In this document: positions 4,984-8,501 of the stretch, piece by piece
Layout: the number at the start of each line of letters is the position of its first letter
How positions within the stretch are numbered: position 1 is the stretch's first letter
Source of the DNA: Nocardioides sp. B-3
GTDB taxonomy: Bacteria > Actinomycetota > Actinomycetes > Propionibacteriales > Nocardioidaceae
DNA: 64,000 nucleotides
Assembly: GCF_024703895.1 (NCBI RefSeq)
Contig: NZ_CP087968.1
Span: 2,666,001-2,730,000 of the forward strand
Reading direction: 5' to 3'
Notes under the pieces: model-generated
The model's input: the letters and a program-made list of their open reading frames with translations, nothing else
Databases searched by the model: none
What the model was told of the DNA's origin: nothing
Program-made: the position numbers and the translations under genes

Positions 4984-6224
4984 ATGACCTCCCTGCTCCT
5001 CGACTCCTCCGAACGAACCTCGACCGGCCGCGCCCAGCGTCCGCTGGTCCTGATCGCCACGCTCGGCGGTGCCGCAGCCGCGCTGGCGCCGCTGCTGGTC
5101 TGCGTGGCCGTGGGCATCATCGGTTGGTTCGCCGCCGATGCCGGTGCGCACGGTGTCCCGCGCGACGGCATGAGCATGGGCGCGGTCGCCCGGCTGATGG
5201 CGCACGGTTCCGGCATCACCGTGCGCGGGGTGGCCGTGGATGCCGTCCCGCTCGGCCTCACCGCGATCTGCGCCTCGGTCGATGTGGCGACTGGGCCACC
5301 GGGTCGGCGACGCGTTGTCGGGCCACGGGCCCGACGCCGACCGGATCTCCGACGGGGAGCGCGACTTCACGGTGCCGCTGGCGACCGGACTCTTCTTCAT
5401 CGGCTACGCCGTCGTGGCCGTCGTGGTGGACACGCTCACGGCGAGCGTCGAGACCACCCTGAGCGTGCCCGGCGTGGTCATGTGGAGCCTCGCGATGACC
5501 CTCGCGTTCGCAGGGCCGGCCATCGCGGTCGGCTCCGGCCGGGCCGCGATCTGGGCGACCTTCGTGCCCGCCGTGATCCGACAGGGCGCCGCCACCGCGA
5601 TCGCGATCCTGACCGCCTTCCTCGCCCTGTCCGCCGCCGTCTTCCTCGTCTCCCCGGCCGTGGGCATCGGCCGCGCCGCGACGATGATGAGCCAGCTGCA
5701 CCCGGGGGTGGGCGAGGGCATCGTCTACGCCGTCGCCAACGGCGGATTCCTGCCCAACGCGACCCTTTTCTCCGGCTCCTTCCTGCTCGGCCCGGGGTTC
5801 GCGGTCGGCGGCAACACCCTCGTCTCGCCCGGCGCCGTGGTGCTGGGCCCGCTCCCGTTGTTCGCCCTGCTGGCGGCGCTGCCGGGCACCGGCACGCCCG
5901 GGCTGCTCCTGTCGTCCCCTGGTCTGGCTGCCGCCGTTGGTGGCCGCGCTCGCGACGATGTGGTGGCAGCGTCGACACCCCACCCTGACGTGGCTCGAGG
6001 CCGCGCTGCGCGGTTGTGGCGGCGGGATCGTGGCCGGGGTCGCCTTCGCGACGCTCGCCTCCGTGGCGGGCGGAGCCGTCGGACCCGGTCGGATGCGCCA
6101 CGTCGGACCGTTCGTGCCGGAGGTGCTGGTGGCGGCCATCACGGCGTTCGGCCTCGGTGGCCTTCTCGGCGCCCCGGCGATGGCGTGGTGGCAGCGGCGA
6201 GGAGCCCTAGACTCCGGCGAGTGA
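4984..6224 (+). CDS. perM: PerM-like DUF6350 integral membrane protein
   Basis: Polytopic membrane protein of about 410 residues with roughly eight hydrophobic segments, for example LGGAAAALAPLLVCVAVGII, ATGLFFIGYAVVAVVV and GVAFATLASVAGGAVG. It sits between sucCD and purN-purH. That position and topology match the DUF6350/PerM family, whose mycobacterial member is described as supporting cell division and persistence. Frame changes near 5275–5285 and 5905–5930 separate the N-terminal, central and C-terminal parts. The stop TGA at 6222–6224 overlaps the GTG start of purN, so translation is probably coupled. The function is taken from synteny and general resemblance; the gene symbol should be treated as provisional. 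Confidence 0.72.
6208..6213 (+). promoter_or_regulatory. Candidate −10 box (TAGACT) for purN
   Basis: TAGACT ends 7 nt before the purN GTG, the spacing seen repeatedly in this window and consistent with a leaderless transcript. It lies inside the 3' end of the PerM-like gene. Confidence 0.4.
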
Positions 6225-6825
6225 CCACTCGTCTTGTCGTTCTCGTCTCCGGTGCCGGCACCAACCTCCGGGCTTTGATCGACGCGTGCGCGGATCCGGC
6301 GTACGGCGCACAGGTGGTCGCAGTCGGTGCCGACCGCGACGGCATCGAGGCGCTCGCTCGGGCCGATCGGGCCGGCATCCCGACCTTCGTGAAGGAGGTC
6401 TCGCACTTCACGAGCCGCGAGCACTGGGACCGGGTGATGGCGACGTCCGTGGCCGGGTTCGAGCCGGACCTCGTGGTCTCGGCCGGCTTCATGAAGCTGG
6501 CGGGGAGGAGTTCCCGGCCCGTTTCCCGGGCCGCTACGTGAACACCCACCCCGCGCTGCTGCCGTCGTTCCCGGGGATGCACGGCGCTGCCGACGCCCCG
6601 GCCCATGGCGTCAAGGTCACCGGCGCGACGCTCTTCATCGTCGACGCCGGAGTCGACACCGGCCCGATCATCGCCCAGACCGTGGTGCCCGTGCTGGACG
6701 ACGACAGCGTCGAGAGCCTGCACGAGCGGATCAAGACCGCCGAGCGCACGATGCTCGTGGACACCATCGGGCTGATGGCCCGCGACGGGTGGGAGCTGGA
6801 CGGGCGCCGCGTGCGCTTAGGATGA
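6221..6825 (+). CDS. purN: Phosphoribosylglycinamide formyltransferase
   Basis: Transfers the formyl group of 10-formyl-THF to GAR in purine synthesis. The N-terminus has [16 protein letters not shown] (the phosphate-binding loop), followed by [13 protein letters not shown]. The C-terminal half has [20 protein letters not shown], holding the catalytic Asn/His, and [10 protein letters not shown]. About 201 residues, normal for the family. The GTG start at 6221 overlaps the preceding stop by 4 nt. One frame change near 6503 (one G missing from the run in CTGGCGGGGAGG) splits the raw frame. A ZTP-type riboswitch and purH follow. Confidence 0.93.
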
Positions 6826-6927
6826 GCGCACACGACTGGCGCAGGTGGCTGACCACCGGGGAGTGAAGCCGTGGAGCATCGAACGCCCGGGTGCTCCCCT
6901 CCGCAGCAATCTTTTTGGAGCAGCCCC
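6826..6927 (+). promoter_or_regulatory. ZTP/ZMP (pfl-type) riboswitch leader of purH
   Basis: The leader carries the two conserved blocks of the pfl motif. The first is ACTGGCG (about 6834–6840), then a GTGG–CTGA–CCAC hairpin and CGGGGAG (about 6857–6863). The second is a CGCCCGGGT loop (about 6884–6892) closed by GGAGCA at 6873–6878 pairing with TGCTCC at 6892–6897. The same TGCTCC can instead pair with GGAGCA at 6917–6922, which contains the purH ribosome-binding site (GGAG, 7 nt before the GTG at 6928). The two pairings exclude each other, so ligand binding should free the site and turn purH on. ZTP/ZMP riboswitches are known to control purine and folate genes; ZMP is the substrate of PurH. 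The structure is read by eye. Confidence 0.85.
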
Positions 6928-8501
6928 GTGTCCCCACGCCTTCACGACCAGATCCCGATCAAGCGCGCTGGTCTCCGTCTACGACAAGGCCGGGCTCGAC
7001 GAGCTCGTCCGCGGCCTGCACGACGCCGGTGTGGAGCTCGTCTCCACCGGCGGCTCCGCCAAGCTGATCGCCGACCCGGGCCTGCCCGTCACCAAGGTCG
7101 AGGACCTCACCGGCTTCCCCGAGTGCCTCGACGGCCGGGTCAAGACCCTGCACCCGCGCGTCCACGCCGGCATCCCGGCCGACCGCCGCCTCGACACCCA
7201 CGTCCAGCAGCTCGCCGACCTCGGCGTCGAGCCCTTCGACCCGGTCGTGAGCAACCTCTATCCCTTCACCCAGACCGTGGCCTCCGGTGCGAGCCCCGAC
7301 GAGTGCGTCGAGCAGATCGACATCGGCGGCCCGTCGATGGTCCGGGCGGCCGCCAAGAACCACCCGTCCGTCGCCATCGTCACCTCTCCTGCGCGGTACG
7401 CCGACGTGCTGGCCGCCGTCGCTGCCGGGGGCTTCACCCCGGCTGCCCGCAAGACGCTGGCCGCCGAGGCGTTCGTGCACACGGCGACGTACGACGTGCA
7501 CGTGGCGTCGTGGATGGGCAACGTGCTCACGGACAGCTCCGAGGGCAGTGGCTTCCCGGCGTGGATGGGCGCGACGTGGGGCAAGGACGCGGTGCTGCGC
7601 TACGGCGAGAACCCGCACCAGTCGGCCGCGATCTACTCCAACGGTTTCCTCCCCGGTGGTCCCGGGCTCGCGCAGGCGACCCAGCACCACGGCAAGGAGA
7701 TGTCCTACAACAACTACGTCGACGCCGACGCGGCCCGCCGTGCGGCCTACGACTTCGACGAGCCGGCCGTGGCGATCATCAAGCACGCCAACCCGTGCGG
7801 CATCGCGGTCGGCCCCGACGTGGCCGACGCCCACCGCAAGGCGCACGCGTGCGACCCGGTCTCGGCGTTCGGCGGCGTGATCGCCACCAACGTGCCGGTC
7901 TCGGTCGAGATGGCCCAGCAGGTCGCGGAGATCTTCACCGAGGTCGTCGTTGCCCCCGGCTACGAGGACGGCGCGGTCGAGATCCCGGCCGCGAAGAAGA
8001 ACATCCGGATCCTCGAGGCCGCCCCCCGGCCCGCGGCGGCGCCGAGATGCGTCCGATCTCCGGCGGCCTGCTGCTGCAGCACCGCGACGTCATCGACGCC
8101 GACGGCGACGACCCGTCCACCTGGACGCTCGCGACCGGCACCGCCGCGACGCCGGAGGTGCTCGCCGACCTCGCCTTCGCCCGGCGCGCCTGCCGGTCCG
8201 TGAAGTCCAACGCCATCCTGCTCGCCGCCGACGGTGCGTCCGTCGGCGTCGGCATGGGCCAGTCAACCGGGTCGACTCCTGCCGCCTCGCGGTCGAGCGG
8301 GCGGGGGAGCGGGCCGCTGGCTCGGTCGCCGCGTCGGATGCGTTCTTCCCCTTCGCCGACGGTGCGCAGGTGCTGATCGACGCCGGCGTGACGGCGATCG
8401 TGCAGCCGGGCGGCTCGATGCGCGACAACGAGGTCATCGAGGCGGCCGAGAAGGCCGGCATCACGATGTACTTCACCGGCACGAGGCACTTCTTCCACTG
8501 A
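6928..8501 (+). CDS. purH: Bifunctional AICAR transformylase / IMP cyclohydrolase
   Basis: Catalyses the last two steps of IMP synthesis. The N-terminal MGS-like cyclohydrolase domain contains [33 protein letters not shown] and NLYPF. The transformylase domain contains [37 protein letters not shown] and, near the end, [14 protein letters not shown]. About 523 residues. The start is GTG 6928, set by GGAG at 6917–6920. Frame changes lie near 6970 (one base missing in CGCGCTGG), near 8025–8035 (a CCCCCCGG run) and near 8262. The stop TGA at 8499–8501 shares its A with the ATG of the next gene. Confidence 0.95.

Follow-up and report, generated by a model that had tools for sequence, protein, structure and literature searches.

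The 64,000-nucleotide stretch of Nocardioides sp. B-3 DNA analysed here (the window) raises the question of whether purH is preceded by a ZMP/ZTP riboswitch and, if so, at which level such a leader would control its gene. The original prediction placed a ZTP-type riboswitch on purH and described it as a translational ON switch, in which the 3' strand of stem P3 pairs either within the aptamer or with the ribosome-binding site. Judged from its sequence, the purH leader is best read as a ZMP-gated translational ON switch, and we consider this reading probable. For the class as a whole, the aptamer, the link to purH and an ON logic operating through displacement of P3 are already known (PMC2864571, PMC10085676, PMC10907184, PMC13273304); no paper on ZTP riboswitches in Nocardioides turned up in the literature collection searched. 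The elements of the leader are collected in Table 1.

Table 1 Elements of the purH leader and the gene that follows it, in window coordinates
Feature	Position	Strand	Basis
ZMP/ZTP riboswitch aptamer	6822-6899	+	RF01750 alignment, 36.4 bits
Inner P1 (6831-6833 with 6863-6865), enclosing P2 (6845-6848 with 6853-6856)	6831-6865	+	Counted by hand from the model alignment
ACTGGCG block	6835-6841	+	Sequence
GGCG, J1/2 side of the predicted pseudoknot; partner CGCC at 6884-6887	6838-6841	+	Complementarity
CGGGGAG block	6857-6863	+	Sequence
P3 5' strand, GGAGCA	6873-6878	+	Sequence; P3 hairpin -6.6 kcal/mol (predicted)
CGCCCGGG in L3, most likely a misread CGCCTGGG	6884-6891	+	Genus comparison, CCWGG depletion, PurH artefacts
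P3 3' strand, TGCTCC, common to the aptamer helix and the ribosome-site helix	6892-6897	+	Kept in L066, L067 and L077
T-run, five T	6912-6916	+	Sequence
GGAGCA, second partner of 6892-6897, holding the purH Shine-Dalgarno GGAG (6917-6920)	6917-6922	+	Sequence; off-state hairpin -6.4 kcal/mol (predicted)
purH start codon GTG, seven bases 3' of GGAG	6928-6930	+	Sequence
purH	6928-8498	+	GTG start; frame broken near 6967 and 8020; end from alignment to relatives

Gene setting and identity of the aptamer

The purN frame stops at TGA 6823-6825 and purH begins at the GTG at 6928, so that the riboswitch occupies the gap between the two genes. The Pfam domains run in the order purN (a formyl transferase domain spread over two frames), purH, a major facilitator protein, folD (two pieces) and DUF3017, a purine and one-carbon setting in which purN lies upstream, purH directly downstream and folD farther downstream of the leader. 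The identity of purH is given by the Pfam domains AICARFT_IMPCHas and MGS on 6968-8200 and by alignments to the relatives' loci L066, L067 and L155, and the closest named match to the PurH piece is that of Nocardioides cavernae (90% identical). The genes purH, folD and glyA are among those named for the pfl/ZTP class (PMC2864571). A perfect inverted repeat, GTGCGC at 6811-6816 and GCGCAC at 6826-6831, flanks the purN stop codon; it overlaps the 5' side of P1 and could, judging by its position, compete with that helix.

The ZTP assignment of the original prediction was borne out by a covariance search. A sensitive cmscan of 6700-7060 matched RF01750 (ZMP-ZTP) with an E value of 1.4e-4 and a score falling slightly below the gathering score of 39 bits; a scan of the whole window with Rfam at gathering scores gave 0 matches. 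The alignment spans model positions 1-86 of 86 with a short P1, the outer pairs of which are mostly non-standard here (five of ten P1 pairs are flagged as such). The P1/P2 and P3 subdomains were recovered by the model alignment, and the pseudoknot between J1/2 and L3, which is formed in the ZTP class (PMC10687018, PMC10907184), is predicted here from GGCG/CGCC complementarity. The class blocks ACUGGCG and GGGAG are present, and the third, CGCCUGGG in the class, reads CGCCCGGG. The leader thus resembles the class (pfl motif) in aptamer layout, in its GACUGGCG and GGGGAG blocks, in its L3 block and in its placement before purH, and it differs in its sub-cut-off score, its short P1 and one deviant L3 base that is most likely a sequencing error.

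Across the whole genome the leader is the top-scoring of six RF01750 matches at E <= 10. The other five (L002-L006, 24.6 bits and below) were considered as a second ZTP riboswitch and rejected; the runner-up (L002, 24.6 bits), which was the one inspected by eye, has no ACTGGCG at the match, and all five were excluded from the leader counts given below. In a sample of the genus an RF01750 match at E <= 1 was found in 97 of 98 genomes and exceeded the cut-off in 90, the window's own genome being counted among the 98 and lying under the cut-off. In a sample of the family 157 of 198 genomes have a match at E <= 0.1, and 142 of the 198 exceed the cut-off, in 16 of 26 genera with a match. A DNA match was obtained in 213 of 215 genus genomes. 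The two genomes nearest by DNA over 6500-7300, G021 (locus L066, 88%) and G005 (locus L067, 85%), score 42.7 and 45.8 bits. Because of this evidence from relatives, the small shortfall in score and the probable misreading of one conserved base, we accept class membership despite the sub-cut-off score. That the leader is an ordinary member of the ZMP/ZTP class is well supported by its RF01750 match, by the distribution of matches in genus and family and by the purH gene downstream.

The C at 6888 and the quality of the assembly

The original prediction had named three conserved blocks, of which ACTGGCG and CGGGGAG stand and CGCCCGGG does not represent the conserved form. Among 104 distinct genus sequences the L3 block is CGCCTGGG in 103, and CGCCCGGG occurs only in the genome of the window. 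A real C would make this a variant or dead aptamer with an altered binding site, and both the sub-cut-off score and the near-uniform T at this position in the genus fit such a reading. The motif CCWGG, however, is strongly depleted in the window: it was found 22 times against 160 expected (CCTGG 9 against 85.5, CCAGG 13 against 74.5), whereas in 59 genus loci neither CCTGG nor CCAGG falls below expectation. Over the whole genome, CGCCTGGG was counted 7 times on the forward and 23 times on the reverse strand, compared to 221 and 208 for the same pattern in reversed letter order, a control that differs in composition.

Changes of the same kind as that in L3 occur in the purH coding sequence. PurH of the window deviates at four residues that more than 90% of 133 sequences share (some genomes contribute more than one sequence). 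At codons 7175, 7241 and 7985 it has proline where 132 of 133 sequences have leucine, the lone exception (L065) being the same genome, and each of the three changes is a CCTGG read as CCCGG; the fourth, leucine to isoleucine at 7631, also occurs in two other loci. At some positions where relatives have CCWGG, the window departs by a silent change, which is the pattern expected of true avoidance. Genuine CCWGG avoidance was considered for this reason, and the Leu-to-Pro codons favour error. The CCWGG depletion and the matching changes in PurH therefore indicate that CGCCCGGG is most likely a misread CGCCTGGG, and that the C at 6888 most likely reflects a sequencing error rather than a variant aptamer; a real C is in our judgment highly improbable, also given a genome completeness of only 61.27% in one contig.

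The assembly probably carries a systematic misreading of CCWGG, possibly because the motif is methylated. Species-specific DNA modifications are among the factors that limit the quality of nanopore consensus sequences (PMC8011154), and our guess is that this is a nanopore assembly. Compared with its relatives, the window has extra or missing bases at about 6442-6534 in purN, and near 6967 and at 8018-8023 in purH; housekeeping genes that are broken by small indels or lie in two frames agree with the low completeness of the single-contig genome. The folD gene is split between 10071 and 10146. The probable CCWGG misreading matters for any single-base claim in the window, and the length of the T-run (five in the window, four in L067) may be uncertain as well.

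Alternative pairings of the P3 3' strand

The coordinates of the two exact six-base partners proposed for TGCTCC, one GGAGCA within the aptamer and one at the ribosome site, check against the sequence. The bare hairpins formed with the two partners are predicted to be nearly equal in energy. Among 5000 dinucleotide shuffles of the 43 bases that follow P3, 0.7% contained a GGAGCA. The stability of the off-state hairpin is unremarkable, 35% of 500 shuffles of 6892-6935 being equally or more stable. The switch is not visible when 6826-6935 is folded without pseudoknot or ligand: the predicted pair probabilities are about 0.17-0.18 for P3 and 0.002-0.003 for the off-state helix, and the predicted energies are -41.9 kcal/mol for the free minimum, -40.6 with P3 enforced and -38.1 with the off-state enforced. 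Pseudoknot and ligand, which that calculation leaves out, would be expected to favour P3. A second, weaker partner for the ribosome site, CTCC at 6899-6902, lies outside P3 (predicted -2.4 kcal/mol) and could, in the folding model, partly mask the site while P3 stays intact.

TGCTCC with both GGAGCA partners is kept in the two nearest loci, L066 and L067, and in L077 (genome G093, twelfth by DNA), and the off-state helix of L066 can be extended to seven bases. In the third nearest locus, L068, the six-base match is shifted (GCTCCT/AGGAGC), and in the fourth, L069, P3 strand and ribosome site share no complement of at least five bases. The window's exact design was found in none of the 103 genus leaders besides L066, L067 and L077. 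The proposed switch between P3 and the ribosome site is thus supported by the sequence, the near-equal predicted energies and conservation in these three loci, but its exact pairing is not genus-wide. The analysis establishes class membership, the position before purH, both pairings with their near-equal predicted energies and their presence in three other species; ligand binding, the direction of control and the translational level are inferred.

ZMP and ZTP accumulate when 10-formyl-THF is short. In the ligand-free leader UGCUCC (6892-6897) would quit P3 and pair with the downstream GGAGCA, and this pairing would mask the purH Shine-Dalgarno. Binding of ZMP or ZTP to the aptamer would hold P3 and the J1/2-L3 pseudoknot, the ribosome site would then be free and PurH output would rise, and the extra PurH would consume the accumulated ZMP. 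Displacement of a P3 strand has been published for transcriptional ZTP riboswitches (PMC10085676, PMC10907184). In the Clostridium beijerinckii pfl riboswitch, as described in those two papers, an invader likewise competes for the P3 3' strand, ligand blocks the invader and the logic is ON; there the invader builds a terminator, whereas in the purH leader the proposed invader is the ribosome site and no terminator is seen. The purH leader would add a likely translational design, an exact copy of a P3 strand at the ribosome site, and the two six-pair alternatives of near-equal energy make mutational analysis simple.

Leaders of relatives and rival modes of control

To what extent this pairing is general was evaluated on 104 distinct genus leaders, including that of the window. 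P3 covaries among them, pair 3 being G-C in 95 and C-G in 4, and pair 4 G-C in 51 and A-U in 30. On average the ribosome site is predicted to be paired with a probability of 0.79; shuffling the stretch before it gives 0.71 (the native leader has the higher value in 68 of 103 cases, Wilcoxon p 3.9e-5). For 86 distinct pairs of P3 strand and site, the observed mean energy was never reached in 5000 between-species permutations. This own-pair advantage vanishes when the pairs are collapsed to P3-strand clusters (own better in 4/10, 7/17 and 11/24 clusters, not significant), and the window's own TGCTCC cluster has none (-9.16 against -9.24 kcal/mol). Perfect complementarity of the P3 3' strand to the ribosome site was also counted against permutations: a match of at least five bases is present in 60 of 103 leaders (mean of permutations 30.6, maximum 42), one of at least six in 32 (16.6 and 27) and one of eight in 22 (7.2 and 15). 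After removal of the largest group, which masks its site by a CCTCATCG/CGATGAGG hairpin, by dropping leaders with CATCG in the first twelve bases, complements of at least five bases remain in 36 of 76 leaders (permuted mean 25.4, maximum 36), and those of at least six, in 8 of 76 (9.0 and 16), are no commoner than in species-swapped controls. Across the genus, pairing between the P3 end and the ribosome site is thus a trend to which one group contributes most.

These comparisons bear on the possibility that the ribosome site is masked chiefly by a helix outside P3, for example by CTCC 6899-6902, with the aptamer acting via another contact and the match between P3 and the site reflecting largely a C-rich strand opposite GGAG. 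C-rich strands pair with GGAG by default, as the already high shuffled mean illustrates, the own-pair advantage is absent in the cluster-level tests, and the CCTCATCG/CGATGAGG hairpin starts at base four or five of the P3 3' strand. The CTCC hairpin of the window is weak, however, L077 lacks that CTCC yet retains TGCTCC/GGAGCA, and the match in L001, L066, L067 and L077 covers two bases past GGAG, outside the Shine-Dalgarno core; masking chiefly from outside P3 is in our judgment unlikely. A real aptamer could also act on transcription, through an intrinsic terminator or Rho before or within purH, the pairing at the ribosome site then being incidental. The ZTP mechanisms described in PMC10907184, PMC10687018 and PMC10085676 are transcriptional, and Rho-dependent control is invisible to the sequence tools used. 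The leader itself, though, has no terminator-like site, its five T sit within the loop of the off-state helix, as the original prediction had pointed out in arguing against simple termination, and because the leader ends at the start codon, a downstream terminator could not fit between it and purH. Transcriptional control is on this evidence unlikely. The sole terminator-like site in 6100-7100 (6216-6233) lies about 600 bases upstream, near the purN start, and was rejected as a terminator of the leader; a scan of the same interval gave no sigma-70-type promoter-like site. The purH leader is a clear and testable candidate for translational ZTP control.

Other Nocardioides purH leaders have the same aptamer before purH and differ in what follows it. 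Unlike the window, the largest group relies on its own hairpin, and other leaders have GAGCA just before AGGAG, the shifted GCTCCT/AGGAGC, or no complement of at least five bases (43 of 103). It is conceivable, although we propose it with some doubt, that Nocardioides has kept the ZTP aptamer before purH and rebuilt the translational platform more than once. The platform types would, equally tentatively, be a copy of the P3 5' strand (GGAGCA twice), GAGCA before AGGAG and the longer CCTCATCG/CGATGAGG hairpin. If true, the genus would constitute a natural series of one aptamer rewired to ribosome access.

Two further observations concern the distribution of the riboswitch. Six genus genomes (G003, G047, G054, G070, G090 and G091) have no RF01750 match below E 0.1, and their purN-purH DNA matches are split in two pieces; the riboswitch may be lost or altered in these genomes. 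In 19 of 27 family loci examined (L038-L064, mostly from genus g19) the gene after the ZTP riboswitch starts like D-3-phosphoglycerate dehydrogenase (serA), and L045, the one serA-like locus checked, carries 2-Hacid_dh and ACT domains. A serA-linked ZTP switch would govern the supply of serine and hence of one-carbon units.
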